A stretch of DNA of 64,000 nucleotides from Candidatus Rifleibacteriota bacterium (GTDB lineage: Bacteria > Muiribacteriota > Ozemobacteria > Ozemobacterales > Ozemobacteraceae), in assembly GCA_012517355.1 (NCBI GenBank), contig JAAYVD010000126.1, positions 62,001-126,000 of the forward strand, written 5' to 3'. A program made the position numbers and the translations under genes. The notes beneath the pieces were generated by a model. That model was given only the letters and a program-made list of their open reading frames with translations, was not told the DNA's origin and searched no databases. This document shows positions 7,244 through 30,025 of this stretch, piece by piece; the stretch's first letter is position 1, and the number at the start of each line of letters is the position of its first letter.

Positions 7244-7250
7244 GCCGGTG

Positions 7251-10485: not shown

Positions 10486-10668
10486 GATCAGCCGCCTCTC
10501 CGAAGGATGGGACCCGCGCGCCGGCGGGCCAGGAGGCCGTCTGGGGCGCGGATGGCCACCACCGGACCGCCCGCGGCACGGCCGCGGCCCGCGACGACGT
10601 CGGGCCGTCCCGGGATCGGCCCGGGCGTGGAGCGGGCGGGAAAGGCGGCGAGGCGGCCGCCTGGCGGG

Positions 10669-10824
10669 TCGAGGAACGGGCGCTCCGCGCCGCCAGCCAT
10701 GGCGGCCAAGAGGAAGCCCTTCCGGCGTCGGGCCGGTCGGCCCCTTTGCGGTTCGCGAAACGGACCTTCCGCGCCGCCATCGGTGGCGGCAAAGGGGAAA
10801 CCCTTCCGACACCGTGCCGGTCGG
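10669..10824. repeat. R1 palindromic repeat, two tandem units
   Basis: Two units share the border GGCCGGTCGG (10731-10740). The complete second unit has CCCCTTTGC...GCAAAGGGG arms, GCGCCGCCAT/GGTGGCGGC inner arms and ends with CACCGTGCCGGTCGG. The first unit is partial but keeps CCGCGCCGCC, ATGGCGGC, CCTTCCGGCGTCGG. The pair fills most of the 340-bp gap between the methyltransferase-like and HD-GYP genes. Confidence 0.8.
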
Positions 10825-10825
10825 C

Positions 10826-13730: not shown

Positions 13731-14585
13731 GTGCCCGAAACCGAGACCGTCCCCATCGTTCCTTTGCCCGACACCGCCGGCTCCCCGCGCGAGTTCCAAC
13801 TCCTGCCGATCGGGCAGGTGACGCCCAACCCGCGGCAGCCGCGCCGCACCTTCGACCAGGAAAAGCTGCGGGAACTCGCCTCCTCGATCCGTCAGCACGG
13901 GGTGATCCAGCCCATCCTGGTGCGGCGGCTGGGCAACGGCTTCCAGATCATCTCGGGCGAACGGCGGTTCCAGGCCTGCAAGCTGGCCGGGATCAGCCAC
14001 ATCCCGGCGGTGATGAAGGAGATCGACGACCGGGAGGCCTTGCTGGCCGGGTTGATCGAGAACATCCAGCGCGAGGATCTCAACCCGGTCGAAGAGGCCC
14101 AGGCGATGCGGGAGATCCTGCTCAAGCACGGTCTGACGCACGACCAGTTGGCGGAAAAACTGGGGCGCAGCCGGTCGGCGCTCACCAACCGGCTCAGGAT
14201 TCTCCACCTTCCTGCCGATATCCAGAAATTGATCGCCGATGGAACGTTGTCGGCGGGACATGCCAAGATTCTGGCCGGCCTGCGGGACGCGAAGGAGATC
14301 CGTTCATGGGTCAGGAAGGTGCTGCGCCTCGAGCTGTCGGTCTACGAGACCGAGAAGCAGATCGCCGACGCCCGCCAGCCCCGCACCGCCGTCCGGCCGA
14401 GGAAAGGAACCGGTGGAATGGCCGCTGACCTGCACGTGGCCCAGGTGGAATCCTCGCTTCAGGAGATCCTCGGCGCCAAGGTGCGCATCCGCCAGGGTCG
14501 CGTCAAGGGCCGGATCGAGATCGAGTTCTACGACCGCGACGACCTGGAACGGGTCGTCGAATCCCTGCTGGGGAACCGGCCGTGA
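13731..14585 (+). CDS. parB: ParB/Noc family chromosome partition protein
   Basis: 284 residues from a GTG start. The N-terminal CTPase/parS-binding core is intact: PNPRQPRRTFDQEKLRELA, SGERRFQACKLAG (GERR box), IPAVM, and ENIQREDLNPVEEA. A helix-turn-helix follows (THDQLAEKLGRSRSALTNR), then the C-terminal dimer region. ParB binds parS DNA, loads CTP, slides as a clamp and, with ParA and condensin, segregates the origin. No typical ParA lies next to it; the nearest P-loop ATPase is the MinD-like protein at 15613. No parS-like site (TGTTTCACGTGAAACA type) was noticed in the window. It has its own promoter. Confidence 0.94.
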   Translation: MPETETVPIVPLPDTAGSPREFQLLPIGQVTPNPRQPRRTFDQEKLRELASSIRQHGVIQPILVRRLGNGFQIISGERRFQACKLAGISHIPAVMKEIDDREALLAGLIENIQREDLNPVEEAQAMREILLKHGLTHDQLAEKLGRSRSALTNRLRILHLPADIQKLIADGTLSAGHAKILAGLRDAKEIRSWVRKVLRLELSVYETEKQIADARQPRTAVRPRKGTGGMAADLHVAQVESSLQEILGAKVRIRQGRVKGRIEIEFYDRDDLERVVESLLGNRP

Positions 14586-14626: not shown

Positions 14627-15514
14627 GTGTACATCAAATTCTGGGGGGTCCGCGGGTCGGTTCCCGTGCCAGGACGGGAGACCGTCAAGTTCGGGGGCAA
14701 CACGACCTGCATCGAGATCCGCACCTCGGACGGCCAGCTGATCATCATCGACGCGGGCACCGGCATCCGGCTGCTCGGGCTGGAGCTGATGAAGGGGGAT
14801 TTCGGGAAGGGGGCGGGCACGGCCCACATCCTGTTCACCCACTCCCATTGGGACCACATCCAGGGCTTTCCCTTCTTCGTGCCGGCCTACATCGGGTCGA
14901 AGGACGACTCGGGGAACCGCCTGGAAGGCCGGTGCAACCAGTTCCACCTGTATGGGGCCTCCGACGTCGACGACCGGCTCGAAGCCACTCTCCGGGGCCA
15001 GATGGAGCATTTCTACTTTCCCGTCGATCTGAACTACCTCAGCGCGCAGATCAACTTTCATCCGCTGGCCGGCAAGAACATCCAGATCGGCAGCGCCACG
15101 ATCACCGCGCGGCGGCTGATCCATCCCAACGGGGTCCTGGGCTACCGCATCCAGGACGGGGACAAGGCCCTGTGCGTGGCCACCGATTGCGAGCATCCGA
15201 GCGACGGCAACCTGGACAAGAACCTCCTGGAACTCGCCCAGGACTGCAATCTGCTGGTGTACGACTCGCAGTACACCCCCGAAGAGTACAACCCCGAGGC
15301 CCACGGGATGAAGGGCCCCACCAAGATCGGCTGGGGGCACTCGACGTATGCGGAGGGCATCCGCGTGGCCAACGAGTGCAAGGTGGCGCGGCTCATCCTG
15401 ACCCACCACGACCCCCTGCACAACGACGCCAAGATCGCCGACATGGAAAAGAAGGCCCAGGAGGCGTTTCCCGCCACCCTGGCCGCCTACGAGGGGCTGG
15501 TCATCCAACTGTAG
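14627..15514 (+). CDS. Metallo-beta-lactamase fold hydrolase
   Basis: 295 residues from GTG. The metal motif HSHWDHIQG (HxHxDH) sits near residues 67-75, with later ligands in the stretch CVATDCEHP (Asp) and RLILTHHDP (His). It begins with YIKFWGVRGSVPVPG, which is typical of a group of MBL proteins related to phosphoribosyl 1,2-cyclic phosphodiesterase and ribonuclease Z-like hydrolases. It is a cytoplasmic enzyme; the substrate is unknown. It is 42 bp after parB in the same direction, so may be co-transcribed. Confidence 0.88.
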   Translation: MYIKFWGVRGSVPVPGRETVKFGGNTTCIEIRTSDGQLIIIDAGTGIRLLGLELMKGDFGKGAGTAHILFTHSHWDHIQGFPFFVPAYIGSKDDSGNRLEGRCNQFHLYGASDVDDRLEATLRGQMEHFYFPVDLNYLSAQINFHPLAGKNIQIGSATITARRLIHPNGVLGYRIQDGDKALCVATDCEHPSDGNLDKNLLELAQDCNLLVYDSQYTPEEYNPEAHGMKGPTKIGWGHSTYAEGIRVANECKVARLILTHHDPLHNDAKIADMEKKAQEAFPATLAAYEGLVIQL

Positions 15515-15612: not shown

Positions 15613-18600
15613 ATGGCACAGGGGACCTTCACCAGCCCGATCTATCTGTTCGGGTCGATCCGGGGGGGCGCGGGCAAGACCACCCTGGTCGTCGACCTGG
15701 CCATCTACCTGAACGCCCGCGGCCGGCGGGTGGCGGTCATCGATGCCAACGCCCCCTTCCCCATGCAGTTCCGGAGCGCGATTCCCAAGGGGGTCAGCCT
15801 CGAGACCTACGCGGACGTCGGCGAACTGCTGGCTTCCCCGCAGTCCCGCTTCCGGCGCTCGTTCTTCTTCACCAACACCGACCGGATCTCGCTCTTCCCC
15901 GCCCATCGCCTCGGGCAGGCCGGGGCGCTGGTCACCGACACCGGACTGCGGGACTTCCTGCTGCAGGTGCGCTCGACGTTCGACGTGGTGATGGTCAACC
16001 TGCCTCCCGGGACCGAAGCCTTCGCCGAGGTGGAGACCTTCACGGGGCGCGCCGGGAAGAGGTTCGGCACGGCACCGCTGGCGGTGCTGGTGAGCAACGC
16101 CGACCAGAAGAGCCTGGCGGCCTTCGATGCGCTGCTGCGGGAGCGGCCGGCCATCGGCCACCTGCTGCGCGAACGCCTGGTGGTGGTCTTCAACAAGGTC
16201 CCCCGCGGAGTGGAAGACCAGAACATCGCCAACCCGGTGCTGACCCTCGCCGACATCCGCCGCCTGTTTCCCCTGCCCGCCGCGGTCGGCCTGCCGTTCC
16301 TCGAGGACGTGCCACGCCAGGCCATCGAACCGGCCCCGCTGGTGCTGGCCGACCGGTCGCCGGTACGGCAGGCGGTGGCCACGCTGGCCCGATTCCTGGC
16401 CGACCTGCACGACGCCCCCACCCCCTGGGACCTCTCCCCCGAACCCGACCCCTTTTCCCCGAGCCTGGACCCCGTCCTGTTGGGACGGCTGTCGCCCCTG
16501 GTCGACCGCCTGCAGGCCACCGTGGCCCGCCGCCTGTTCGTGCCGCACCAGGGCGTCGCCACCTTCCTGGATGCCTCCGATCGCAAGGTGCGCATCCGGG
16601 TCCGGCTGGCCCGCAACACCCGGCCGAATTTCCCCCCCCTGCTCGACGTCGACCACCGCCAGCCACGGCGGCCGCCGGGGGAGGCCCGGCCCTCCTTCAC
16701 CGCCATCCGGGCCGCCATCGGCCGGCGCAGCACCTATCGGGAGCCGCTCCAGACGCCCCGCATCTCCGCCAAGCCCCTGTACCAGTTCGACGACCGGTTC
16801 GCCCTGCGCACGGAGTTCGTCCCGTCGGCCGACTGGGAGTATGTCTCCCAGCCGCGCCAGGGCCCGCCACCGGCATCGGCCGGAACGGCCGAAGAGACCG
16901 CGGTGGCGGCCCCCGATCTCCACGCGCTGGGCGGCATCCTGGAGTTGGGCCGCTCCATCCCGCTGACGCTTGCCTACCGCCATTTCCAGGTCGGAGAGGC
17001 CCCACCTCCCATCCGGCATTTTTTCCTGCCCCCGGAGTTCCCGCTGTGGGTGCGGTTCGGCTGTGCCCGCCCCGACGACTGGTGGTTCGACCCGCGGCCG
17101 AACCCGGCCAGGCCTGTCGAGCCACGCCACCGCCCCGAACCCCGACCCGCCGCCCTCGACCGGCCGCTGGTCCTGGTGGGCGACATCCCCGACCTCTTCC
17201 AGCGCAACTGGGAGCTGGCCCTCGTCGCGCCCATCGAAGAGTTCCCCCCCGCCCCCCGCCGCGAGCGGTTCGCCAAGGTGGAACGGGCTTTCGCGGCCGG
17301 TCCGCCGGCCGGCCGCCTCCGGGCCCCGCGACTCTTCCACGCCCAGCCACGGGACGAACGCCCCGAAGTGCCGCCGTTGCCGGCGCGAGGGCCCCTCCGG
17401 CTGATCGACCGGGAACCGATGGTCAGGCCCGTTCCCGGCCTCCTGGAGGCCGCCCTGCGGGGGACCGGTTACCCCTCGCGCCTGGAGCCGCGCCTCCGGC
17501 GCGAAGCCACCGCCCTGGAGGTCCGCCGGCTCCTGCGACATCCCGAGCCCGCCGAACCGGTCTTCTTCTCCTCGCCCAAGCTCCAGATGCTGACCCCCAC
17601 CGCCACCGACGCCCCCCGGCCGGCCCCCCCCCCCGGCCTGCTGGACTACCGCGAGGAGGCCAGACCCCCGATGGGAACGTTCCGGCCGGCCTGGCGGGCC
17701 CAGGGCCTGCGCGGCCGCGCCGCGGGGACCGAACCGGTGTTCCGGCCGCCCGCCGGGCGGTTCGGCATGGAGCCCTTCCTGATCGGCCACCGGTTCGGCC
17801 TGGTCCCCTGGTGGGGAACCACGATGTTCCGCGACCGCCTCCCTCCCGACAAGGCCTTTCCCGGGCTGCGGGCGGGTCATGCCTCCCTTCCCGTCCATGA
17901 CCGGGCCTGGCGGCTGCCGGTCTTCGCCGCCATGCCTCCGGCCCTGCCCACCCTGCCACGCCTTTCCTTCACCTACCGGGAATCCCTGTGGAGTTTCCGG
18001 AATCTGCGCTACCAGGGTCTTTCCATCCACACCTCGGGGCGTCACGGCATCTTCCCCGCCCGCCTGCCCGCCCGGCAGCCGCCCGCCTGGGTGGGCATCC
18101 CCCGCTGGTTCCGGGAACCGTTCGCCTTCAGCGGCGAGCTGGTGGCGGGCGCCCAGCTCCGATTGCGCCTTCCCCCCCTGCCCCGGCCCTGGGTGCCGTC
18201 GTCCAGCCCCACCCACGCCGGATGGCTCGGGTGGAAACGGGGGGTCATCCTGCGCGTCACCGAGCCCGCCGTCCGGACGGTGGCCTTCTTCACCCGTCCG
18301 GGCCCGGCGGGACCACCGGAACCCCTCTTCCAGGAACGGCCCGACCTCGGCCTCTGCCTGTTCGCGAGGGGAGTCCCGATCCGGCCCGACGCCGAGGAGC
18401 TGATCGAACGCGGGGCCAGGACCCTCGCCTACCCGCCGCCCCACCTGCGCCTGCTGGGCTACGTGCCCACCGAGGCCTGGTTCCACATCTCCTCGAAAAC
18501 CTTCACCCTGGTCTCCTTCCACCTGTCGTCGTTCCGCATCGATGGGCGGCGGGAACGCCTCGCGGTGGCCTGTCCCGACCTCCCCGCCGACGCCGGACGG

Positions 18601-19215
18601 AGCGAGCGCCCGGTTCCGGTCGGGGTTTCCGCCCCCCCGCGATTCTTCTCCCCCCTGCGCCACCGGCATCCCGGCCTGCCCGAAGTCGCCCCCGGCCGGC
18701 CGGCCATCGGCCTGCCCCCCGACGAGGAGCGGCCCTCCCTGCGCGGAACCGCCCGCCACCTCCCCGACTTTCCCCCGCCGTTCTTCCCCGAACCGCGGTT
18801 CCGGATGCCCGACTTCCGGCTGCGGTTCATCCCCTGGCGCATGCGCGGCCAGGACATCAGGGTCCTCGCCGGGCGCGGCGAGATGCCGGTCCCCCCCCCC
18901 GACGTCTGCGAGGTCCTGTTCCGGAACCTGCACGAACGGTGGCAGGCGTGGATGGCGAGCCCCATCGCCTTCCGCGTTTCCCGGCCGCAGGTCGACGCCG
19001 CCGACCGCCTGGCCGCGGGCCGGGCCGTGGTCCCACCCGCCCGGACCCCCTGCCTGCCCGACCTCCGCACCCGGCCCTTCCGAACCCCGAAGCGGATGGA
19101 CACCTTCCGGCTGGGCGGGATGCGGATCATGACCGCCCGGCTCCGCGACCTCCTGCAGGTCGCGCGCCAGACCGCCGAGGTTCCCCACCGGCTCGCCCCG
19201 CCGGGCCAGACATGA
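15613..19215 (+). CDS. MinD/ParA-like ATPase fused to a ~900-residue Pro/Arg/aromatic-rich region
   Basis: 1200 residues. The first 260 or so are a MinD/ParA-type P-loop ATPase: Walker A RGGAGKTT at residues 17-24 (the signature lysine before GG is Arg), VAVIDAN (switch), VVMVNLPPGTE (Walker B region) and LVVVFNKVPRG. The remaining 900 residues have no known domain. They are rich in Pro, Arg, Phe, Trp and Leu, poor in Lys, and repeat a pattern of short hydrophobic strands separated by proline turns (PEFPLWVRFGCARPDDWW, FGLVPWWG, LRFIPWRMRGQD). The last codon overlaps the next start as ATGA, so the two giant proteins are coupled. Membrane or polar localisation by the ATPase is a reasonable guess, unproven. 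Antisense is also open, as expected at this GC. Confidence 0.88.
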   Translation: MAQGTFTSPIYLFGSIRGGAGKTTLVVDLAIYLNARGRRVAVIDANAPFPMQFRSAIPKGVSLETYADVGELLASPQSRFRRSFFFTNTDRISLFPAHRLGQAGALVTDTGLRDFLLQVRSTFDVVMVNLPPGTEAFAEVETFTGRAGKRFGTAPLAVLVSNADQKSLAAFDALLRERPAIGHLLRERLVVVFNKVPRGVEDQNIANPVLTLADIRRLFPLPAAVGLPFLEDVPRQAIEPAPLVLADRSPVRQAVATLARFLADLHDAPTPWDLSPEPDPFSPSLDPVLLGRLSPLVDRLQATVARRLFVPHQGVATFLDASDRKVRIRVRLARNTRPNFPPLLDVDHRQPRRPPGEARPSFTAIRAAIGRRSTYREPLQTPRISAKPLYQFDDRFALRTEFVPSADWEYVSQPRQGPPPASAGTAEETAVAAPDLHALGGILELGRSIPLTLAYRHFQVGEAPPPIRHFFLPPEFPLWVRFGCARPDDWWFDPRPNPARPVEPRHRPEPRPAALDRPLVLVGDIPDLFQRNWELALVAPIEEFPPAPRRERFAKVERAFAAGPPAGRLRAPRLFHAQPRDERPEVPPLPARGPLRLIDREPMVRPVPGLLEAALRGTGYPSRLEPRLRREATALEVRRLLRHPEPAEPVFFSSPKLQMLTPTATDAPRPAPPPGLLDYREEARPPMGTFRPAWRAQGLRGRAAGTEPVFRPPAGRFGMEPFLIGHRFGLVPWWGTTMFRDRLPPDKAFPGLRAGHASLPVHDRAWRLPVFAAMPPALPTLPRLSFTYRESLWSFRNLRYQGLSIHTSGRHGIFPARLPARQPPAWVGIPRWFREPFAFSGELVAGAQLRLRLPPLPRPWVPSSSPTHAGWLGWKRGVILRVTEPAVRTVAFFTRPGPAGPPEPLFQERPDLGLCLFARGVPIRPDAEELIERGARTLAYPPPHLRLLGYVPTEAWFHISSKTFTLVSFHLSSFRIDGRRERLAVACPDLPADAGRSERPVPVGVSAPPRFFSPLRHRHPGLPEVAPGRPAIGLPPDEERPSLRGTARHLPDFPPPFFPEPRFRMPDFRLRFIPWRMRGQDIRVLAGRGEMPVPPPDVCEVLFRNLHERWQAWMASPIAFRVSRPQVDAADRLAAGRAVVPPARTPCLPDLRTRPFRTPKRMDTFRLGGMRIMTARLRDLLQVARQTAEVPHRLAPPGQT

Positions 19216-22200
19216 GCCTGCAGCCTCCCGCGTCGGGCGAAGGGCCCGTTTTCGACCGGCCCCGGCCGGCCGGCGACAGCAAGTTCCTCGTGGTCAAACG
19301 GTGGTGGACCCAGGCCACCCGCTCGCTGCTCGCCGGCAAACCCCTCTTCGCCACGGGGGTCCCGGGACCCGGCCAGCGCTGTTTCGCGGGGAAGGCGGAC
19401 GGATTGTTCCTGGTTCGGCCCCGCCCCCCCGAGCGCCGGTTCCGCCCGGGAGACCCGGCCTGGCGGGCGGGCCGGCGGGGGGAACGGGGATTCCTTCCGC
19501 CTCCCGCCTGGCACCCGCCCCAGGCCCTGCCGTATTTCCCGCGGGCCCTGCCACCCGTCCTGCGCCCGACCTGCCAGGGCCAGCCGGGCCCGGCCGACCG
19601 GTCGGACCGGCGGACGGGGGGTGGCGCCGTTTTCCTTTCCCACCCCGGACCCGCGGATCATCCCGATTGGCGGGAGCGGCCGGCCGTGCTGCATTGCCTC
19701 GGGTCGACGGCAGAGACGGCCCGTTGCCGGCGCATCCTGCCTGGGGCAGGGAACCGCGCCGGCGGGCCGGCGGGGCGGCTGGAACCCGCCGGTCCCGACC
19801 GCCGGGAGGGGTGGCCGGAACCCGCCTCCCGGGCTCCCTGGCGCCCCCCGGTCCCCTTCGAGGTCCTTGAACCTGGCCGGCTCCGGCCGCCGGCCGCGCC
19901 GGTCTGGGCCCGCCCGCCCGCCTGGCCGGTGGCGGAACGGGGATTCCGCCCCGGCCTGGCCGGAGCCGCCGCCGGTTCTCGTCTTCCGCTCTGGCAGCGG
20001 GCGGAGCGGCCACTGACCGGTCTTCCCCGGCCGCCGGCCTGGCCTGCCGCCCCCATCGCCGCCCCCCTCCTGACGGTCAGCCGCCCCGGCCCGGGCGCCC
20101 GCGGCCGGCTGGCCGCCCGTTCCGACCCGGCCACCCGCGCGGCCTGGCCCGTCGGGCCAGGCCCCGACGGAGAGACCGGTTTCGCCCTCCTGGCCCCGGG
20201 CCGGGAACCGCCGCCGGGCATGGCCCCGACGGAAGTCCCCTCCCCCGCCCTGCTGTCCGCCGGTGCCACCATCACCCCCGGACTGGCGCCGGTCAGCCGG
20301 GTCCGCCCCGACCCTGGCCGGGGTTTCCCGCCGGCGGACCACGTGGCCCGTTCGGCCCTGGCACCTCTCGCCGGCCTGATCAACACCCGCTTCCGGGTGG
20401 GGTTCCCGCCGGCCGTCTTTCGGCCTTTGCGCACGATCCGGCTGCAGGCGCGCCTGCTGCGTCTCCCGCCCGGCTGGGAAACCCGCCCGGGCGGGTTCGC
20501 GGTCCTCACCCCCTGGGGCCTCGTTCCGGCCTTCCCCGCCGGGGCGGCGGTCCGGGGGCCCGGGGTCCGGTTCCCTGACCACGCCGACTGGGAGAGGCTT
20601 TTCCGACCCCTGAAAGCGTCCGCCGAACGGGCGGAGGGATGGGCCGCCGGACGGGCGGACGGAGGGACGGAGAGACGGACGGAAGAGCAGGCCCGCGGCG
20701 GCCCCCGGGCCGTCAAAAGCGCTTCCAGAAAAGGGTTTCGCCCTGCCCGCCAACCGTCTCAGACCGCCGGCCACCCCGCGGCGACGACCGCCCAGGCCTC
20801 TCCGACCGCCGACCAGAGTGCGGAGGCGACCGCCCAGGCCTCTCCGGTCATCGCCCCCCCCGCTCCGCCCTCCGGCCGCCGGTCACCCCCTTCCAGCCTG
20901 CGACCGTCAGCGGCTGCCTGGGCCGCGCGACCGCCCCGGTTCACCCTCTTCCCCATTCCCGGCACCGGGCTGACGGAGAGCCGCGCACCGCTGGCCCGGC
21001 TGCTGCCGGGACCCGCCCGCCCCCAACCCGCCCCGCCCGCCTGGCGCGGTGAATGGACGGCCTTCGTTCAGCCAGGCCCGGTCGGCCCCTTGGCGATGCG
21101 CGAAACGGGCGTTTCGCTCCGCCCTCCGTGGCGGCCAAGGGGCCGTTCCGACATCGCGTCGGTGGGCCCTATGGCGGTGCACGAAGCGGAGACTTCGCCC
21201 CGCCCTCCGTGGCGGCCAGGGAGGAGTTCCGATTTCGGTCCGGTCGGGTTCGACACCCGCGCCGGTCCATTCCGGGACGTCATCGAGATGTGGTTGCGCC
21301 CCTTCCCGTTCAGCCTTCTGGCCCTGGAGGAACCGTTCAACGACATCAAGGACCCGCCCGGCCGCCGCCGACAACCCCTGCGGGGAAGCCTGTTCGCCTG
21401 GCTTCCACCCCAGCCCCACCCGAAGCGGACCGAGCCCCTTCGCCAGTATCGTCTGTCCTTTCCCACCCCTCCCGCCGGGTTCCAGGCGGCCCCCCGCCCC
21501 CCGCGGTCCCGGCTCCGCCCAAGGCGCCGGCGCTGGCCGCCCCTGTTTCCCGCGCCCCGCTCCGCCTTCCCCCGCCAAGCCTGGAAGACGGTCGGGCCGG
21601 TCGGCCGCGCCCCCTCCTGGCGGCTGGCCTTCACGCTGGAGACCTCGTTCGGCCACCCGCGTCCTCCCACCCCGCTGGCCCTCCTGGAACCGGCATCCGC
21701 CGTCTGGCGCCTGACGCCGGGGCAGGGAGGCCAGGCCCGGGAAGAAGCCGCCCCCCCCCGGCGCCGCCTTCCCCTCCCGGTCGCCCCCCCCGTCCGCCGG
21801 GTCGCGGAACCGCCCTTCGTCTTGCCCCCACCCTGGGCCGCCGGCCGCCGGTCCTTCGCGCCCACGGTGGGGATCGGACCGTTCCCCTTCGGGTTCCCCG
21901 TCCTGCACGAACGGGAGGGACGACTGTGGCTGCTCCACACCGCCACGGAACTGCCGCTGCTCGGGCGGTTCGCCCTGGTCGACTGGCCCGGCCCCTACCT
22001 CTACCAGCGCCGGTCCCGCCTCCGGTCCCCGACCAACCTGCGCGCGCCGCGCCGGTTCCTCGGCCCCACCCTGCGCCTGGGCACGCATTTCCCCTATGTC
22101 ATGCCCTTCCCGGACCCCTTCCGGCGGGAACCTGGCGTCCCCGAAGCCGGCCGAATCGCCCCCTGCCCGAGCCCGGAACCAGCCACCGCTCCGGTCCTGT

Positions 22201-24059
22201 CCTCCCCGACCCTTTCGTCTTCGGAGCGACTGCCCATCACGGCCGCCGGCCCGGGCTCTGACCCGTTCCCCCCAACCGCTGCCGCGTCCAGCGCCATCCC
22301 GCCCTCGGAACCGGCCACCCACATGGCGGCGCCCTCTGCCACAGGGCCCGCTACCCTTCCCTCCCCCGGCCCGCTGGGGCCCCGGCTGCGGCAACCCCCG
22401 CACCAGGCCAGGCCCCGCCTGCCGGCCCCCGGGCCGCTTCCCCGCCTGACCCAAGGCACCAGCGCCGTCCTGGCGCGGCCCCGGCCCCACCCCCGTGCCC
22501 GGCCGTCCCGCCTGCCGCTGAACCTTCCGGCGTCACCGTTCCCCTTCCATCAGGCGAGCCCCCCGCCGCCGATGCCTGACGCCGGCCCACGCCCCGGGCC
22601 CCTGGCCACCAGCCAGGCCTGCCGCTCGCCCGAGGCCTGGCTCCGCGGCGGATTGACGCCGCCCGCCGTCGACGCGGCCGCCGTGGGCCGCAGGGGAACC
22701 GGGCCGGCGACCGTCCTGGACCTGGTGGGCCTGCCCCCGGCCCTGATGTCCGGCTTCCTGCCCCATGCCGACGTGCCGGCGCCCGCCTGCTTCCCCGTGC
22801 CGTTCGCCCCGCTCGTCCCGACCCTGGCCCCGCCGCAGACCAGGCTCTACCAGGGGTTGCCGCCCTCGGGGTTCGCGCCGCTCGCCCCCCGGCTGGAGGG
22901 GGTGATCCGGGTGGAACCCGCACCGGCCCTTCCCTTCCTGTCTCTGGAGGACGAGCCATGCCTGAGCGGGCTGGAGGAAGACGGCGATTTCCACGTCCTG
23001 CAGATCCGCCTGGCACCACCGGCCTCCACCATCCCGCTTGTCCACCTCCTGCCGACCCGCACCTGGCGGCCCTGGGCGGCTCCCGAGCCCCGCCTGGACG
23101 GCCCCGCCATCCACCCCGCCCCGGCGTGGTCGACCCGGCCCGCCCCCGACCGACACGATGTCGGAAGTGCCCCCTTGCCGCCACGGATGGCGGCGCGAAA
23201 CGTGAGTTTCGCGCATCGCCAGGGGGCCGTCCCCCGGGTGGTCATGACCTCCCGCGCCGCGCTGCCGTGGCGCGGGGTTTTTCCCGACCGGTTGCCCGCC
23301 CTTTCCCGACCGGACGTGCCCCCCCACCGGCTGCTCCGGCTGCGCGTGGCCGCCCGCTTTTCCGCGATCGGCGACGCCGGCGGGCCCCGGAGCGACGCCG
23401 CCTGGGCCGCCGACATCCCGGGCACGGACATCCGCCTGCCGCCGCTGCTGCATTCCCCGTCCTCACACTGGCCGGTCGAGGCCGCCGGTTTCGCCCGCCT
23501 GGCCCTCGCCGGCGATGGTTTTCCCGCCGGCCGGAACTGGCCCGTCTCCTGGGGCAGCGCCGTCCTCGACGCCGTCGTCCATGCCCCCGCCGACCACGGG
23601 TGGCTTCCCTCCCGGAGGCATCAGGCCAGCCGTCTGCCCCTGTTCTTCCGGGTGCGGAAGGATCCCCTCGCGCTGGCCCTTCCCAAGCGCCCATTCCCGG
23701 AGCCGGAGGTGCTGGTGCCAGCCTGGACGCCGGTCCGGCCACCGCCTCGCTGGGCGGCCCGCCCCGTCTTGGTGGCCACGCCGGTCCTGTACGTTCCGGA
23801 ATCCCGTTTCCGGGTGCAGGTCCCGGCCCCCCAGGGCTTCGACGAGGTCCTGACCGGTCCGGCGCCCGGAACCCTGCCCGCCCCTCTCCCCGTCATCAGC
23901 CAGCCCGGAAGGGATTGGCGCTGCCCGACCGACTTCCCCGTCCGGTCCCCGACGCCCCGACGCCCCCCGCCCCGCCAGCCCGATCTCCCCGACTGGCTGG
24001 ATCTGCCGACCGGCCGCCCCGACCACGCCCGCCGGCCGACCTTCCCCATCGGGTTCTGA
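19212..24059 (+). CDS. Giant 1615-residue Pro/Arg/aromatic-rich protein of unknown function
   Basis: The start is set by the ATGA overlap with the previous gene; the frame is open further upstream only through the other gene. The protein resembles the extension of its neighbour: short hydrophobic strands between proline turns (GFAVLTPWGLVPAFPAG, RFALVDWPGPYLYQRR), with little Lys and much Arg, Trp and Pro. No signal peptide, membrane helix or known domain is seen. A disordered stretch at about residues 480-570 includes a 14-residue tandem (TAQASP...). Two R1 repeat loci lie within the frame and are translated. Third-position GC is high throughout. Because stop codons are rare here, openness alone is weak; coupling and composition are the main support. 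It may be a structural partner of the MinD-like ATPase. Confidence 0.75.
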   Translation: MSLQPPASGEGPVFDRPRPAGDSKFLVVKRWWTQATRSLLAGKPLFATGVPGPGQRCFAGKADGLFLVRPRPPERRFRPGDPAWRAGRRGERGFLPPPAWHPPQALPYFPRALPPVLRPTCQGQPGPADRSDRRTGGGAVFLSHPGPADHPDWRERPAVLHCLGSTAETARCRRILPGAGNRAGGPAGRLEPAGPDRREGWPEPASRAPWRPPVPFEVLEPGRLRPPAAPVWARPPAWPVAERGFRPGLAGAAAGSRLPLWQRAERPLTGLPRPPAWPAAPIAAPLLTVSRPGPGARGRLAARSDPATRAAWPVGPGPDGETGFALLAPGREPPPGMAPTEVPSPALLSAGATITPGLAPVSRVRPDPGRGFPPADHVARSALAPLAGLINTRFRVGFPPAVFRPLRTIRLQARLLRLPPGWETRPGGFAVLTPWGLVPAFPAGAAVRGPGVRFPDHADWERLFRPLKASAERAEGWAAGRADGGTERRTEEQARGGPRAVKSASRKGFRPARQPSQTAGHPAATTAQASPTADQSAEATAQASPVIAPPAPPSGRRSPPSSLRPSAAAWAARPPRFTLFPIPGTGLTESRAPLARLLPGPARPQPAPPAWRGEWTAFVQPGPVGPLAMRETGVSLRPPWRPRGRSDIASVGPMAVHEAETSPRPPWRPGRSSDFGPVGFDTRAGPFRDVIEMWLRPFPFSLLALEEPFNDIKDPPGRRRQPLRGSLFAWLPPQPHPKRTEPLRQYRLSFPTPPAGFQAAPRPPRSRLRPRRRRWPPLFPAPRSAFPRQAWKTVGPVGRAPSWRLAFTLETSFGHPRPPTPLALLEPASAVWRLTPGQGGQAREEAAPPRRRLPLPVAPPVRRVAEPPFVLPPPWAAGRRSFAPTVGIGPFPFGFPVLHEREGRLWLLHTATELPLLGRFALVDWPGPYLYQRRSRLRSPTNLRAPRRFLGPTLRLGTHFPYVMPFPDPFRREPGVPEAGRIAPCPSPEPATAPVLSSPTLSSSERLPITAAGPGSDPFPPTAAASSAIPPSEPATHMAAPSATGPATLPSPGPLGPRLRQPPHQARPRLPAPGPLPRLTQGTSAVLARPRPHPRARPSRLPLNLPASPFPFHQASPPPPMPDAGPRPGPLATSQACRSPEAWLRGGLTPPAVDAAAVGRRGTGPATVLDLVGLPPALMSGFLPHADVPAPACFPVPFAPLVPTLAPPQTRLYQGLPPSGFAPLAPRLEGVIRVEPAPALPFLSLEDEPCLSGLEEDGDFHVLQIRLAPPASTIPLVHLLPTRTWRPWAAPEPRLDGPAIHPAPAWSTRPAPDRHDVGSAPLPPRMAARNVSFAHRQGAVPRVVMTSRAALPWRGVFPDRLPALSRPDVPPHRLLRLRVAARFSAIGDAGGPRSDAAWAADIPGTDIRLPPLLHSPSSHWPVEAAGFARLALAGDGFPAGRNWPVSWGSAVLDAVVHAPADHGWLPSRRHQASRLPLFFRVRKDPLALALPKRPFPEPEVLVPAWTPVRPPPRWAARPVLVATPVLYVPESRFRVQVPAPQGFDEVLTGPAPGTLPAPLPVISQPGRDWRCPTDFPVRSPTPRRPPPRQPDLPDWLDLPTGRPDHARRPTFPIGF
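20785..20846 (+). repeat. Two 20-bp direct repeats inside the giant gene
   Basis: CGACCGCCCAGGCCTCTCCG occurs at 20785-20804 and again at 20827-20846. The 42-bp period equals 14 codons, so the reading frame is kept (TAQASP twice). Confidence 0.8.
21077..21248. repeat. R1 palindromic repeat, two tandem units inside a CDS
   Basis: Unit 1 (21077-21166) carries GGCCCCTTGGCGATGCGCGA, CGTTTCG and TGGCGGCCAAGGGGCC; unit 2 (21167-21248) repeats the plan with ATGGCGGTGCACGAAGCG and TGGCGGCCAGGGAGG. They are translated in the 1615-residue protein as VGPLAMRET...PPWRP and VGPMAVHEAETSPRPPWRP. Orientation is opposite to the copy at 23146. Confidence 0.85.
23146..23231. repeat. R1 palindromic repeat inside a CDS
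   Basis: Complete unit: CCGACCGACACGATGTCGG, CCCCCTTGCCGCCAC, GATGGCGGCGCGAAACG, TTTCGCGCATCGCC and AGGGGGCCGTC. It is read through in the 1615-residue protein as DRHDVGSAPLPPRMAARN followed by VSFAHRQGAVP. Confidence 0.88.
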
Positions 24060-24060
24060 G

Positions 24061-24236
24061 CCGACCGGCACGACGTCGCAAGGGCCCCCTTGGCCACCAC
24101 GGATGGCGGTGCAAAACGCCCGTTCCGCTCACCACAAGGGAACCGGACACCACCAGGCCGGCCACCCTCCTCCAGCCCAGCGGATAGCGCGAAGCCCCCG
24201 TTCCGCGCAACGCCGAGGGACCGTCCGGCAGCCGGG
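24061..24236. repeat. R1 repeat, one full and one partial unit, intergenic
   Basis: The full unit at 24061-24146 begins two bases after the giant gene stop: CCGACCGGCACGACGTCG, CCCCCTTGGCCACCAC, GATGGCGGTGC, AAAACGCCCGTTCCGC. A decayed second unit spans about 24180-24236 (GCGCGAAGCCCCCGTTCCGC...GGGACCGTCC). Same orientation as the copy at 23146. Confidence 0.75.
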
Positions 24237-24267
24237 CGGGATGGGCGAATTTCCCGCCCAGACTGCA

Positions 24268-24296
24268 TTGACAGGTATTCGGAAAGCCGTTAGAAT
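24268..24296 (+). promoter_or_regulatory. Strong sigma-70-type promoter for the PP2C gene
   Basis: TTGACA (24268-24273), 17 bp, TAGAAT (24291-24296): a near-consensus promoter. The predicted start is near 24303, giving a leader of about 23 nt with the ribosome site GGGAGAAGGAC ahead of the ATG at 24326. Confidence 0.85.
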
Positions 24297-24325
24297 GCGC
24301 CAGAGATTCCTTGCGGGAGAAGGAC

Positions 24326-25117
24326 ATGAATTTTTTCACCCTGTCGCACAAGGGGCAGGTCCGCCCCAACAACGAGGATTACGCCGAGAGTTTCCAGCTC
24401 CGATGGTGCACGCTCGACGGCACCGCCAACACTTTCACCGCCCTTCTCCTCTCCGATGGAATGGGTGGGGCCGCGGCCGGCGAGTATGCCTCCGGCGAGA
24501 CCATCAAGATCTTCAGAGACCTCATCCAGAAGGAACTTCTGGGCGACTCCCCGGAGAAGTTCGCCTCCTCCGACCTGAAGAAATTCATCTGCGACACCAC
24601 CGTCCTGGCCAACCAGACGGTTCACCAGAAGGCCAAAGACAACCCCGACATGGAGGGAATGGGCGCCACCCTGGTGGTGGGCCTGATCTACCAGGACATG
24701 CTCACCCTCGGCCACGTCGGCGACAGCCGCTGCTACCTCCTGCGGGAAGGGAAGTTCAAGCAGATCACCCATGACCACTCCTTCGTCCAGGAACTGGTCG
24801 ATCAGGGCAAGATCACGGCCGACCAGGCCGAGAAGCACCCGAACAAGAACGTCATCACCCGGGCCATGGGCGTGAGCCCGACCGTGGAGGCCGAGTGCAA
24901 GACGATGCCCCTGTTCGTCGGCGACGTCCTGCTGCTGTGCAGCGACGGCTTGTCCGGGTATGCCGACATGAAGGCCGTCCAGCGCCTGCTCAAGGAAAAG
25001 GCCGAGGAGCGGTTCGTCAACCTTCACGCCATCAGCCAGGAGCTGATCGACATGGCCAACGGCGGCGGAGGCGGAGACAACGTCTCGGTCTGTCTGTACC
25101 GCCACCATTCGGCTTGA
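24326..25117 (+). CDS. PP2C-family serine/threonine protein phosphatase
   Basis: 263 residues, the length of a stand-alone bacterial PP2C (PrpC/Stp). All motifs are present: GQVRPNNEDY (metal Asp region), LLSDGMGGAAAGE, GMGATLVVGL, LGHVGDSRCYLL, HPNKNVITRAMG, LLCSDGLSGY and GGGGGDNVSV. It should remove phosphate from Ser/Thr of proteins with Mg/Mn. The in-frame TTG 15 bp upstream is rejected, because the ribosome site GGGAGAAGG fits the ATG at 24326. No cognate Ser/Thr kinase is in the window. It starts a transcription unit with the coiled-coil and TPR genes after it. Confidence 0.94.
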   Translation: MNFFTLSHKGQVRPNNEDYAESFQLRWCTLDGTANTFTALLLSDGMGGAAAGEYASGETIKIFRDLIQKELLGDSPEKFASSDLKKFICDTTVLANQTVHQKAKDNPDMEGMGATLVVGLIYQDMLTLGHVGDSRCYLLREGKFKQITHDHSFVQELVDQGKITADQAEKHPNKNVITRAMGVSPTVEAECKTMPLFVGDVLLLCSDGLSGYADMKAVQRLLKEKAEERFVNLHAISQELIDMANGGGGGDNVSVCLYRHHSA

Positions 25118-25179
25118 CCGGCCGGCCCGGCCCGGCCGCCGGCCGGCGCTGACCCCGCCGACGGAACGACCGCGCAATC

Positions 25180-27021
25180 ATGGCCGACCGCGACAACCAC
25201 AAGGACCAGCCATCATCGCCCACCCCCGGGACGGATGAGGCCGAGCGGCTGACCGGCCAGATCGAAACCTGGATCCGCCAGCGGAGCCACCTGCTGGAGC
25301 GGATGCAGCAGAATGCCCCGCCGGCGGCCCCCGCGCCCGCCCCCGAGCCCGCCGCCCCGCCACAGGAGGCCCTGAACCGCCGGATCGAGCAGCTCGCCGC
25401 CGAGAACCTCGAACTCCGGCAGCGCCTGGCGGAACGGGACAAAAACCCGCCCCCCGCCCCGGCCGCGCCCCGCCGGCCATCCATCAGCGAGGCCGACTTC
25501 CAGAGCCTGCAGAACCAGAATGCCATCCTGCGCGCCCGGGTCTCCCGCCTGGAGGCGGTCCAGGACAGCAGCCTCGCCCAGAAGACCGCCGCGGAGGAGC
25601 ATCTCAAAAAGATGCAGGCCGACCTCGGACAGGCCAAGACCCTCCTGGCCGAGCGCGAGAGGTTCATCGACCAGCTGAAGGTCCGGCTGGCCGATGCCGT
25701 CCTCGAGCAGAACCGCCTGGCCAACGAGATGCGCGAGGCCCGTGACGACTACGAGAAGCGGCTGCGGGAATTCTTCCAGGTCAAGGCCGAACACGCCGAA
25801 CTCACCCAGCGCCTGGAGAGCGCCGCCCGGAACGAAAAGACCCTCCTCGAGGAGGTCCACCGCCTGTCCGAGGAGCTCCGCCAGGCCCGGGAGGACCAGG
25901 TCGAAGCCCGCCACGCCCACGAGGCGCTGGTCAAGGAACTCGACCAGCGGACCATCGAACTCAACCGGGCCCGCGAGGTGGCCAAGAAGGTGGGGGACAA
26001 AGCCGTCGACGCCGAGCACTTCCGCCACCAGCTCCTGGCCGCCGAGGCCCGGGAACGGGAACTGGTCGCCGCCCTCGAGGGGACCACCGCCGAGCGCAAC
26101 CGCCTGCGCGACCGGATCAGCCGCCTGCTGACCGGGGTCCAGCAATACGTGGCCGGCCCCCCCGCCACCCTGGCCGGCGAGTCGGGCCCGCCCGCCGAGC
26201 CGTTCGCCCCCTTCCTGCCGTTCTGCTTCCCCGACCGTCTGCCGCAAGCCCTGCGCCTCTCCTGGACCCGCCGCCTCGCCCAGGACCTGCCGCCCCACCA
26301 GGCGGCCCCCTCCCCCGCCACCCTCGCCCCCCGCGCCCGCCACGGCCGGCCCCACTATTTCCAGTTGAACCTCAGCCTGCCCCATCACCTGCCGCTGCTG
26401 CCGATCCCCCTCCTCGAGGTGCGCCTGGAACCACGGCTGGAAGAGGCCACCGTGATGCCCATGCTCGAGATCGGCCCCACCCCGGCCCCGGCGTTCGGCT
26501 TCCCCGAAGACGGGAATGTCCGCCCCCTGTCGGCCCGGCAGATGGTGCCGCGCTCCTGCGCCATCCACGCCCGCTCGCTGCCCGCCCCCGCCCGGGTCTA
26601 CATGACCCCGCAGGCCCTGCCCGTCCTGACCTGGTCCACCGACCTCTACCTGGGCTTCCTGTTCTCGACCATCAGCCATCTCCGCCAGGCCTTCGCCCGC
26701 TCCCTGGAACACCGGCCGCCCAAGCCGATCGACCACCTCCAGATGGACCGGTCGCTCGGCCGCCACGTCGATTCCGAAAAATTCCTGCGGGAAAGGGTTG
26801 CCTATCGAGACCTTTCCCGGCTAAAATTCGCCCGGTTGCCGGTGCCCCGCGAGAACCTCGTCTTCGACTTCCAGCGGCGCCGCCTGCAAACGATCTTCAA
26901 GACCTTCGGTGATTCCATTTCCTCGATGTACTCCCGGCTCGAACGCATGCTGCAGCCCTCTTCCCCGCCACAGGAAGAGCCTCCGGCCAAGAAACCCACC
27001 GGTCCACAGGAGGACGTATGA
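25180..27021 (+). CDS. Coiled-coil protein with Pro/aromatic-rich C-terminal half
   Basis: 613 residues. After a Pro/Ala-rich linker (residues 45-65), residues about 65-325 form a long coiled coil (LAAENLELRQRLAER, LQNQNAILRARVSRLEA, REDQVEARHAHEALVKEL). From about 335 on, the sequence changes to short hydrophobic strands with proline turns (PHYFQLNLSLPHHLPLLPIP, LLEVRLEPRLEE), the same style as the two giant upstream proteins, and ends in an amphipathic helix (IFKTFGDSISSMYSRLERML) and a Pro-rich tail. No known family. It overlaps the TPR gene by 4 bp (ATGA) and lies 62 bp after the PP2C gene. A filament-like or scaffold role is a guess. Confidence 0.85.
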   Translation: MADRDNHKDQPSSPTPGTDEAERLTGQIETWIRQRSHLLERMQQNAPPAAPAPAPEPAAPPQEALNRRIEQLAAENLELRQRLAERDKNPPPAPAAPRRPSISEADFQSLQNQNAILRARVSRLEAVQDSSLAQKTAAEEHLKKMQADLGQAKTLLAERERFIDQLKVRLADAVLEQNRLANEMREARDDYEKRLREFFQVKAEHAELTQRLESAARNEKTLLEEVHRLSEELRQAREDQVEARHAHEALVKELDQRTIELNRAREVAKKVGDKAVDAEHFRHQLLAAEARERELVAALEGTTAERNRLRDRISRLLTGVQQYVAGPPATLAGESGPPAEPFAPFLPFCFPDRLPQALRLSWTRRLAQDLPPHQAAPSPATLAPRARHGRPHYFQLNLSLPHHLPLLPIPLLEVRLEPRLEEATVMPMLEIGPTPAPAFGFPEDGNVRPLSARQMVPRSCAIHARSLPAPARVYMTPQALPVLTWSTDLYLGFLFSTISHLRQAFARSLEHRPPKPIDHLQMDRSLGRHVDSEKFLRERVAYRDLSRLKFARLPVPRENLVFDFQRRRLQTIFKTFGDSISSMYSRLERMLQPSSPPQEEPPAKKPTGPQEDV

Positions 27022-29162
27022 GTCTGAAACGCACCTATCTCCAGGACGAAGCCAACACCCACTACAACCTGGGCATCGCCTACTACACGAAGGGGCAGTA
27101 CGAACTGGCCATCTCCGAATGGATCCAGTCGTTGATCAAGAACCCCCAGAACAGTGAGGCGCGTTTCAAGCTCGGCGTCGCCTACTACCAGCTGAACCGG
27201 ATCGACGAGGCCCTGAAGGAATGGGAGATCGCGGTCTCCCTCGACCCGAAGAACTTCGAGGTCCTGCACAATCTCGGCATCGCCTACTACAACAAGGGCG
27301 ACGACGCCAAGGCCATCGAGAACTGGGAACAGTGCCTCGAGATCCGCGCCCACGACGCCGAGATCCACTTCAAGCTCGGCATCGCCCACTACAACCTGGG
27401 CAAGGAGGACCGGGCCATCGCCCTGTGGGAAAAGGCCTCCAACCTGAACCCCGAGGATTCCGACGTCTTCTTCCGGCTCGGCGTGGCCTACTACAACAAG
27501 GGCCTCGACGACAAGGCGGTCATCGCCTTCTCGAAGGCCATCGAGCTGAACCCGAAGAACAGCGAGGCCCACAACAACCTCGCCATCGTCTACTACCGGC
27601 TCGAGATGTTCCCGCAGGCCATCGACGAGTGGAAGAAGGCCCTCGCCCTCAATCCCCGCCAGCCCGAGATCTACAACAACCTCGGCAACGCCTTCAGCAA
27701 GCTGAACCAGCACCGCGAGGCGATCGAGATCTGGCAGAAGATCCTCGAGATCACCCCCGCCAACGCCGAGGTCTACTTCAAGCTCGGCTCGGCCTACGCC
27801 AAGCTCGACGACCTCGACCGGGCCATCGAGTGCTGGCAGCAGTGCATCTCGATCAACCCCAACGACATCGAGGCCCACTTCAACCTCGGCGTCGCGCACT
27901 ACAACACCGGCAACTTCAAGAAGGCCATCACCTACTGGAACACCGTGCGCGAGAAGCGCAGCGAGGACGCCGACATCTGCGAGAAGATCGGCAACGCCTA
28001 CTGCGGCATGGAGGATTTCGCCGAGGCCGCCAAGTTCTGGAACCGCGCCATCTCCTACGTGCCCGACGACCCGCAGCTCCACCACAAGCTGGGCATCGCC
28101 TACAGCAAGCTGAACAAGACCCAGGAGGCGGTGTTCCAGTGGCAGAAGGCGGTCGAGATCGACCCCAACCACTTTGAGGCGCACCACAACCTGGGCATCG
28201 CCTTCTACAATCTGCAGCGCTTCGACGAAGGCCTCCGGGAATGGGAGAAGGCCCGCGACCTCAACCCCACCGACGCCGACATCTTCTTCAAGCTCGGCCA
28301 CGTCTACCGGCAGAAGCGCCGGCTCGACGACGCCATCGTCTCCTGGAAGAAAGCCATCGAGCTCGACCCCAACAACCCCAACACCCACTTCGTGCTGGGC
28401 AACGCCTTCGACGAGAAGGGCCTGCTCGACGACGCCATCCTGTCCTGGCGCCGGGTGATCGACCTCGCCCCCAACGACGTCGATGCCCACAACAATCTCG
28501 GCATCGCCTATTTCCAGAAGAACCTGTTCGACAAGGCCATCGCCGAATGGGAGGACGCCATCCGCATCACCCCCGAAAACGGCGAGCTGTACAACAAGCT
28601 CGGCATCGCCTACATCAAGATGGACCTCTTCGAGAAGTCGGTGGAATGCTGGGAAAAGGCCCTGAAGTACAAACCCGAGGATTCGGACATCCTGTCGAAT
28701 CTTGCCACCGCCTACCACAACCGCGAGATGTACGACAAGGCGATCGAGATCTGGAAACGCGTCATCAAGTACAACCCCCAGGACGCCGAGGCCCGCAACA
28801 AGCTCGGCATCGCCTACTACAACAAGGGCATGTACGACCAGGCCATCGAACTCTGGAAGAAGGCCATCGAGCTCAATCCCAAGGACGCCGCCGCCTACTA
28901 CAACATCGGCACCGAGGAGTTCGAGAAGGGCCGCATCAACGAGGCCATCACCGCCTACCGCCGCGTGCTCGAGATCGACCCGAAGTTCACCCAGGTCTAC
29001 TACAACCTGGCCATCATCTACGCCCGCAAGCGCCTGTTCCGCGACGCCATCGACGCCGCCCGCCGGTTCCTGCAGACCACCCCGACCGGGGTCGAGGCCG
29101 AGAACCTCAAGACCCTCGTCGAACAGTGCGAGCAGGAGATGGAGCAATCGGCCGAGGTCTGA
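27018..29162 (+). CDS. Protein made of about 21 tandem TPR units
   Basis: 714 residues, nearly all TPR. Each 34-residue unit follows the consensus NLGIAYYNKG-x-x-DKAI-x-x-W-x-KAIELNP, with very regular spacing, so it should form a long right-handed superhelix. Units differ by only a few residues in places, which implies recent internal duplication. No signal peptide, so cytoplasmic. Coupling by an ATGA overlap to the coiled-coil gene argues for a complex of the two in similar amounts. TPR arrays bind partner peptides; the PP2C phosphatase and the Pro-rich proteins are candidate partners, not shown. Confidence 0.93.
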   Translation: MSLKRTYLQDEANTHYNLGIAYYTKGQYELAISEWIQSLIKNPQNSEARFKLGVAYYQLNRIDEALKEWEIAVSLDPKNFEVLHNLGIAYYNKGDDAKAIENWEQCLEIRAHDAEIHFKLGIAHYNLGKEDRAIALWEKASNLNPEDSDVFFRLGVAYYNKGLDDKAVIAFSKAIELNPKNSEAHNNLAIVYYRLEMFPQAIDEWKKALALNPRQPEIYNNLGNAFSKLNQHREAIEIWQKILEITPANAEVYFKLGSAYAKLDDLDRAIECWQQCISINPNDIEAHFNLGVAHYNTGNFKKAITYWNTVREKRSEDADICEKIGNAYCGMEDFAEAAKFWNRAISYVPDDPQLHHKLGIAYSKLNKTQEAVFQWQKAVEIDPNHFEAHHNLGIAFYNLQRFDEGLREWEKARDLNPTDADIFFKLGHVYRQKRRLDDAIVSWKKAIELDPNNPNTHFVLGNAFDEKGLLDDAILSWRRVIDLAPNDVDAHNNLGIAYFQKNLFDKAIAEWEDAIRITPENGELYNKLGIAYIKMDLFEKSVECWEKALKYKPEDSDILSNLATAYHNREMYDKAIEIWKRVIKYNPQDAEARNKLGIAYYNKGMYDQAIELWKKAIELNPKDAAAYYNIGTEEFEKGRINEAITAYRRVLEIDPKFTQVYYNLAIIYARKRLFRDAIDAARRFLQTTPTGVEAENLKTLVEQCEQEMEQSAEV

Positions 29163-29192: not shown

Positions 29193-29226
29193 CCGGCGCT
29201 TCCCCCGCGGAAGCGCCGGTTTCCTT
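29193..29226 (+). terminator. Hairpin terminator after the TPR gene
   Basis: CCGGCGCTTCC / GGAAGCGCCGG arms with a short loop (29193-29219) followed by TTTCCTT. A strong stem with a poor T-run, 31 bp after the stop of the TPR gene. No gene is seen between here and 29317. Confidence 0.65.
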
Positions 29227-29316: not shown

Positions 29317-29700
29317 TTACGGGGCGGCCGGGGGAACCCGCCGGGGGGAGGGCGGGGAAGACGACAGCAACCGGCGCCACCAGCCGCCGACGAGGGAACG
29401 AACCCGCAGCAGGACACGCGCCGGCAGGCTTTGCAGGCGGCTGAGCAGGAAGAGCGGGTAGTCGGCGTCGGTGTAGGGGCGGCGCTTCCCGTCGGGCCCG
29501 GTGATGGTGTCGAGGTAGCGGACCCCGGGCACGGGAGCCCCCTTGCCCAGGGAGCGGAAGGGGCGCACGGGGATGGCCAGGTCCTGGTAGATGAGCCATC
29601 CCAACACGAGCAAGGCCATCAGGGCGGCGGAGGTCGGCCACCACCGCCCCGGGCGGGCTTCCCCGGCAGGGTCCCCGTCAGGCGGCGGGAGGGGCGGCAA
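29317..29700 (-). CDS. Small membrane protein
   Basis: 127 residues. One membrane helix near residues 24-42 (SAALMALLVLGWLIYQDLA), an N-terminal Pro/Gly-rich part and a C-terminal Arg/Pro-rich tail. A conserved-looking middle (YLDTITGPDGKRRPYTDAD) could be functional. No family recognised. It overlaps the STAS gene by 23 bp on the same strand, so it belongs to the same transcription unit and could be a membrane partner of that signalling module. High GC makes this frame less certain than its neighbours. Confidence 0.55.
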   Translation of the reverse strand: MPPLPPPDGDPAGEARPGRWWPTSAALMALLVLGWLIYQDLAIPVRPFRSLGKGAPVPGVRYLDTITGPDGKRRPYTDADYPLFLLSRLQSLPARVLLRVRSLVGGWWRRLLSSSPPSPRRVPPAAP

Positions 29701-30025
29701 AGGCGGCCAGGGCCTCGGTGCGGTCGGCGTGGACGGGGATCTTGCTCCCCAGCCGGACCATGCGGAACAGCGTCTGGACGTGGGGCCCGGGCCGGCACAG
29801 GCGCAGTTCCCCGCCGCTGCCTTTCAGCTGCCGGAAGATGCCCAGGATCACCCCCAGGCCTGTGCTGTCGAGAAACTGGATCTTTTCGAGGTCGAGCAGC
29901 ACCCGGGAACCCAGCGCCAGGTGGGCATCGACCTGCAGCCGGAACGCCGCCGCGTTGGCGGCGTCGAGCCGGTCGATGGTCGGGGCCAGGATGGTGACGC
30001 GATCGGCGGTTTCCACGGTCAGCAT
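29678..30025 (-). CDS. STAS-domain anti-sigma-factor antagonist
   Basis: 115 residues of a single STAS domain. The phosphorylation signature FLDSTGLGVILG holds the Ser that the HATPase kinase of the pathway modifies. Begins VETADRVTILAPTIDRLDA. In the SpoIIAA/RsbV family, the dephosphorylated form binds the kinase and frees its partner. It begins 1 bp after the stop of the SpoIIE/HATPase gene, so the phosphatase, kinase and substrate are likely co-translated. Confidence 0.92.
   Translation of the reverse strand: MLTVETADRVTILAPTIDRLDAANAAAFRLQVDAHLALGSRVLLDLEKIQFLDSTGLGVILGIFRQLKGSGGELRLCRPGPHVQTLFRMVRLGSKIPVHADRTEALAAFAAPPAA

Follow-up and report, generated by a model that had tools for sequence, protein, structure and literature searches.

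A 64,000-nucleotide stretch of the genome of Candidatus Rifleibacteriota bacterium (contig JAAYVD010000126.1, positions 62,001 to 126,000; the window) contains a block of plus-strand genes that, judged by comparison with related genomes, is real, restricted to one bacterial family and undescribed. The block encodes a P-loop protein with a giant tail (giant 1), a second giant protein without known domain (giant 2), a PP2C phosphatase, a coiled-coil protein and a tetratricopeptide repeat (TPR) solenoid protein, and it is preceded by parB and a gene for a metallo-β-lactamase (MBL)-fold hydrolase. For its function we put forward a tentative hypothesis, namely that the products form a cytoplasmic scaffold, peculiar to this family, in which the acidic, aromatic groove of the TPR protein holds extended basic chains. 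We know of no described system with this gene set, and the literature collection searched contained no paper on the locus. The source genome has a size of 7.1 Mb; relatives of the locus occur in Candidatus Ozemobacter sibiricus (the closest named relative; contig QOQW01000012.1), Candidatus Rifleibacterium amylolyticum and rumen Riflebacteria.

Organization and distribution of the block

An initial annotation, made from the letters of the window, had described five plus-strand genes, with ATGA overlaps coupling giant 1 to giant 2 and the coiled-coil gene to the TPR gene, as a candidate undescribed system. All five frames are present, both overlaps are found (at 19212 and 27018), and the set is family-wide, syntenic for the most part and not a named system; the upstream parB and MBL genes and a promoter that splits the block are additions to that description. 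The features, all on the plus strand, are as follows.

13731..14585, +, parB, with N-terminal, helix-turn-helix (HTH) and C-terminal dimerisation domains (Pfam PF02195, 2.4e-33; PF17762, 1.3e-30; PF23552, 2.7e-8)
14627..15514, +, MBL-fold metallohydrolase (PF12706, 4.2e-18), between parB and giant 1 in relatives
15613..19215, +, giant 1, 1200 amino acids (aa); MinD-like at residues ~1-270, conserved middle at 280-560, fast-evolving basic remainder
15655..15681, +, Walker A region SIRGGAGKT of giant 1, with Arg at the signature-lysine position (from alignment)
15997..15999, +, Walker B position N129 of giant 1, Asn for Asp (13/13 family proteins)
19212..19215, +, ATGA stop/start overlap of giant 1 and giant 2
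19212..24059, +, giant 2, 1615 aa, basic, without known domain; three frames instead in G007 and G014
21885..21899, +, conserved PFGFP motif of giant 2, residues 892-896
24268..24296, +, TTGACA-17-TAGAAT, promoter of the second transcription unit, present in 14 relatives as well
24326..25117, +, PP2C Ser/Thr phosphatase, Stp1 type (NF033484, 4.5e-69, above cut-off), metal-binding motifs intact
25180..27021, +, coiled-coil protein, 613 aa; long helix at residues 104-317, followed by a basic half for which no structure is predicted
26218..26232, +, PFCFP motif of the coiled-coil protein, residues 347-351 (PFxFP in 11/11 family members)
27018..27021, +, ATGA stop/start overlap of the coiled-coil and TPR genes
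27018..29162, +, TPR solenoid protein, 714 aa, 20 full units plus cap, groove positions nearly invariant
29193..29219, +, hairpin resembling an intrinsic terminator, 3' of the TPR gene

The giant 1 profile matched in 18 of 24 genomes of the family and in none of 16 genomes from seven other families of the phylum; the TPR protein, at E 1e-100, was likewise found in 18/24 family genomes and in 0/16 from other families of the phylum. When the TPR protein was used to scan 84,980 species genomes, identities above 80% were obtained only at Riflebacteria-type loci, the next match being 36% identical. One locus labelled Erysipelotrichia (L062) has a TPR protein 87% identical to that of the window; the position of its match equals that in the family genome G023, and it is probably a mislabelled Riflebacteria genome. 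A protein-pattern scan for giant 1 in wider genome contigs gave no relative and also missed the kin present there, so absence beyond the phylum is not well tested by it. Five of the six family genomes without a giant 1 match are 64-82% complete; in the other, G009 (91% complete), giant 1, TPR and ParB are all missing, as if the assembly had a gap there or the entire block had been lost.

Whenever a contig has both giants, giant 2 lies directly 3' of giant 1, and it lies directly before the PP2C gene in 12 of 14 informative species (exceptions, G003 and G006). In G003 the MBL gene and giant 1 have three genes between them; in G019 an unrelated gene comes after the MBL gene.

The block comprises two transcription units, parB-MBL-fold-giant 1-giant 2 and PP2C-coiled coil-TPR. 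A near-consensus promoter, TTGAC[A/T]-17-TA[G/A]AAT, is found 12-32 bases 5' of the PP2C start in the window and 14 relatives (15/15 loci; in L058 the scan pointed to a different site, and the conserved one was recognized by inspection of the sequence). In several relatives the TPR gene is followed, as judged by eye, by hairpins with a T run. The view of a single five-gene unit is given up on account of this promoter and because the two units are physically apart in G003 and G006.

The giant frames are translated and weakly constrained

In the window, giant 2 has a weak and odd codon-position signal (GC1/2/3 = 0.775/0.664/0.858) and many overlapping open frames, as might be expected if the giants were spurious open frames of GC-rich DNA. 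Since the signal in the window is weak, it is the relatives that decide. The locus ranges from 31 to 71% GC within the family, and the giant frames are open in members at 31-52% GC; the homologous frames of relatives are ~1190-1240 aa (giant 1) and ~1280-1360 aa (giant 2) long. The AT-rich relatives L047, L048 and L052 (31-35% GC) have open frames of 1204-1208 and 1310-1312 aa. Between L047 and L048, the proportions of nonsynonymous and synonymous differences (pN and pS) are 0.314 and 0.688 for giant 2, 0.191 and 0.714 for giant 1 and 0.017 and 0.603 for the TPR gene; between the window and L036, dN/dS is 0.55 for giant 2 and 0.05 for TPR. Because substitutions are in excess at third positions in L047/L048, the giants are, on these comparisons, translated and weakly constrained, and a GC artefact is ruled out by the AT-rich kin together with the codon-position substitutions; we give the spurious-frame explanation practically no chance. 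The initial annotation had staked its case on giant frames in relatives, a nonrandom third-position signal and a conserved gene order, and the case held on all three counts. In G007 and G014, three consecutive large frames stand in place of giant 2 (L049 7912-17272, L050 7313-15551).

In the AT-rich relatives, Lys, Phe, Tyr and Asn abound in the giants. Richness in Pro and Arg, which had been taken as the defining trait, is thus a GC effect; the net positive charge of giant 2 persists across the family (+32 to +103), and the tail of giant 1 is basic in most, not all, members. The hydropathy of the giants has neither a clear helix nor a clear strand period. Profile comparison gave no homology among the C-terminal part of giant 1, giant 2 and the C-terminal half of the coiled-coil protein, for which the predicted local distance difference test score (pLDDT) is below 50. 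The likeness of that half to the giants, noted initially, therefore holds for composition alone, apart from one conserved motif, PFxFP, which occurs in 10 of 13 giant 2 proteins and in all 11 coiled-coil proteins (shuffles total 0.6 and 0.04).

The TPR groove is nearly invariant

The TPR protein is 85-97% identical to that of the window in aligned relatives and 81-83% in the two most distant genomes. The corresponding values are 52-83% for ParB, 45-82% for MBL, 39-72% for PP2C, 18-50% for giant 1, 16-58% for the coiled coil and 13-39% for giant 2, and the neighbouring TrpS has a median identity of 71%. The initial annotation gave the TPR array 21 units; the count here is 20 full units plus cap. 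Within the array, the groove positions 2, 5, 6, 9, 12 and 13, assigned as ligand facing from general knowledge of TPR structure, are 93% invariant (core, 75%; others, 60%), with a mean variability of 0.013 (core, 0.056; other positions, 0.110); none of 20,000 random sets was as low. Position 6, the ladder, is N or K in nearly all repeats and invariant across relatives in all of them, position 2 is mostly acidic, and positions 5 and 12 are often aromatic. The protein has a net charge of -22 and -27. Among the genes of its locus, the TPR gene usually has the strongest preference for C-ending codons, a crude indication of high expression.

A structural precedent is given by OGT, in which the lumen of the TPRs is occupied by a disordered segment of OGA, contacted by Asn residues independently of its sequence (PMC10618255). 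By our mapping, OGT residues 94/97 and 230/233 (N-L-G-N) would correspond to TPR positions 6 and 9.

Giant 1 carries a MinD-like domain with altered ATPase residues

The P-loop domain of giant 1 is related in sequence to the MinD/ParA superfamily (CbiA, 1.9e-7, above cut-off; MinD in the PDB, 3.7e-6). Its profile had its top match in the MinD of a sister family, f5 (2e-14), whose gene adjoins a MinC-like gene, and no match to the ParA of a second sister family, f3; the earlier assignment to the MinD type is thus borne out, and giant 1 is ruled out as a ParA orthologue. GK[S/T] of Walker A is kept in 13/13 giant 1 proteins, but the signature Lys is present in none of the 13 (R, Q, H, S or A instead), so the ParA/MinD pattern KGGxxK[S/T] is absent, and the acidic Walker B residue for Mg is replaced by Asn at residue 129 in 13/13. 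Because both residues are altered, the domain may bind ATP without normal hydrolysis, and the ATPase-directed assembly proposed initially is not supported in that form. The P-loop of McdA is also without the signature Lys (SGGQGKT; PMC9178275), and therefore this loss is an argument for impaired hydrolysis, not proof, and by analogy does not by itself exclude giant 1 from the superfamily.

PP2C phosphatase

The PP2C frame is listed from TTG 24311, but probably starts at ATG 24326, since relatives begin at MxFFTLS or similar. Its identification as a phosphatase was correct: it scores 232.5 bits against NF033484 (cut-off, 230), placing it in the Stp1 type, and the motifs RxNNED, DGMGG, GDSR and DN are intact in 15/15 proteins. 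No kinase is encoded within the gene block, to which this check was confined. Control of the assembly by phosphorylation is possible.

The block adjoins the sole parB gene

The HTH_ParB gene is the single one in the source genome, its product has the N-terminal, HTH and C-terminal domains expected of ParB in ParABS, and the block is conserved together with it. In sister family f3, canonical ParA is encoded beside ParB. With f3 ParA as the query, no match at 1e-10 was obtained in 20/24 genomes of the present family, the source genome included; the four matches in the family have 26-35% identity and form part of longer frames. Sites for parS with 0-1 mismatches lie by parB in f3 and f5, whereas at this family's parB loci none is closer than 3 mismatches, with isolated 3-mismatch matches only in L047, L052 and L150. 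The window contains no parS within 3 mismatches, and the source genome has 0 sites at one mismatch. Near-parS sites, mostly with one mismatch, are found elsewhere in many family genomes, the inspected ones in unrelated gene contexts. A search for a shared palindrome that might be a new parS or Noc site gave nothing common to many loci. Taken as they stand, the ParB data support a putative link of the block to the chromosome.

A scaffold model and its rivals

In the scaffold that we tentatively favor, giant 1, with a putatively ATP-binding MinD-like head and a long basic tail, and giant 2 would be made together and would both contribute long chains, positively charged and for the most part unfolded. 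The TPR solenoid, presumably abundant, would grip these extended chains in its acidic, aromatic groove with the Asn/Lys ladder, through backbone contacts and basic or aromatic side chains, as OGT holds disordered substrates. Because the grip would be of this kind, the chain sequences could drift and the groove could not. The coiled-coil protein, where present, would add a rod, with PFxFP as a docking motif common with giant 2, PP2C would set the phosphorylation state, and ATP could serve as the switch. The kinds of proteins and their start sequences suggest that the products are intracellular; the probable site of action of the assembly, in view of its constant link to ParB, is the chromosome or the interior of the cell. 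The model fits the fixed groove, the drifting basic and aromatic partners, the opposite net charges and the motif common to giant 2 and the coiled coil. Several observations weigh against it. In the rumen clade, no coiled-coil gene lies between PP2C and TPR. Giant 1 is 1162-1240 aa long in 12/13 members, a near constancy unusual for a free chain, and the low mean pLDDT of its AlphaFold model (31, from a 7-sequence alignment, and not used here) may be explained by the shallow alignment rather than by disorder. The invariant groove can equally reflect one invariant ligand other than a giant, and the separation of the units in G003 and G006 could mean that there are two systems.

Indeed, the two units could be unrelated neighbors, with the giants in a role of their own and PP2C-(coiled coil)-TPR serving a housekeeping function, its groove occupied by a single conserved cellular partner encoded elsewhere. 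A groove that does not vary is in keeping with a ligand that does not vary, and the conserved promoter of the second unit and the physical separation just mentioned would be expected; we nevertheless consider this somewhat unlikely, since the units are adjacent in most informative species over the full GC range of 31-71%, both are limited to the same family, and PFxFP is common to giant 2 and the coiled-coil protein across the units. Less likely still is a remodelled chromosome-partition or division-positioning system, in which the MinD-like giant took the role of ParA (or MinD) as partner of ParB and giant 2, the coiled coil and TPR form the body of the complex. The sole ParB gene of the genome two genes upstream of giant 1, its conservation with the block, and the absence of a ParA match in most family genomes (against canonical ParA beside ParB in f3) and of a close parS at parB (against f3 and f5) would agree with such a system, and there is a precedent in Streptococcus pneumoniae, which is without ParA and whose ParB works with the ParA-like CpsD (PMC7022226). 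Against it, the P-loop is MinD-like and not ParA by descent, its hydrolysis residues are altered, parS-like sites occur at other places in many genomes of the family, parB and giant 1 are separated by the MBL gene and a gap of ~100 bases, and the arrangement is broken in G003 and G019. The furthest-reaching version, that the whole family replaced ParA (perhaps MinD) by a giant, hydrolysis-impaired MinD-like scaffold partnered with ParB, with the TPR solenoid sheathing disordered chains of >1000 residues independently of their sequence, appears quite improbable.

Comparison with known systems

PomX/PomY/PomZ of Myxococcus xanthus resembles the block in combining a ParA/MinD-type P-loop protein, a filament-forming scaffold and a condensate-forming partner in one megadalton assembly (PMC10307791, PMC7993993). 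It differs in that the P-loop domain of giant 1 continues into a giant tail and has neither the signature Lys nor the Walker B Asp, and in the 20-repeat TPR protein, PP2C, giant 2 and the ParB linkage; the comparison is by description, not by homology to PomX or PomY. With ParABS the block has ParB and a nearby protein of the MinD/ParA superfamily in common, but canonical ParA was not found in most of the family, the P-loop is MinD-like, no parS lies at the locus, and the giants and TPR are extra. OGT, like the family TPR protein, has a long TPR solenoid, here with the ladder at position 6 invariant, and gives one of the strongest matches to natural proteins in the PDB (E about 3e-48), although engineered consensus TPR chains match better; unlike OGT, the protein has no transferase domain (TPR units fill all 714 aa), and Lys alternates with Asn in the ladder. 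The best NCBIfam model for the TPR protein is the magnetosome protein MamA (518 bits), but this 204-position model matches nine times along the 714 aa, as expected for generic TPR similarity, and MamA is a single protein of ~200 aa in a magnetosome cluster, whereas the neighbors here are parB, MBL, PP2C and the giants. McdA of the McdA/McdB carboxysome-positioning system shares the loss of the signature Lys, but is a small protein not known to have a giant tail, and the block has no carboxysome link. Because no described system known to us has this set and the nearest families fall short in defining features that were tested, we judge the block to be new in kind.

Two giant protein families without known domain thus occur with a TPR protein conserved far beyond its neighbors, beside the sole ParB. 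If the scaffold model were true, it would show how very long chains that drift in sequence can be held by a solenoid, and how canonical ParA may be dispensable to a lineage. The phylum is reported to be among those with the most unknown families per genome (PMC10849945), and the block offers named, testable genes in it.

Neighboring genes

No RNA families were found in the window, and matches to known defence systems were weak and generic only. Convergent with the TPR gene, a STAS anti-anti-sigma protein (29678-30025, -) adjoins a 1110-aa PAS/SpoIIE-phosphatase/RsbW-type ATPase protein (30027-33359, -), the pair being a partner-switching module. A 396-aa protein farther along (35339-36529, -) has a cyclic-nucleotide-binding domain fused to a MinD-like P-loop domain; counterparts of ~400 aa are weak matches in relatives. 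On the other side, ScpA-like and tryptophanyl-tRNA synthetase-like genes (6431-8234, -) lie near parB on the opposite strand, in an order kept in several relatives, and a conserved protein of ~312 aa, found at nearly all relatives' loci, is encoded in the window at ~9553-10491 (-), inside a longer Pro/Arg-rich frame (9511-11199).

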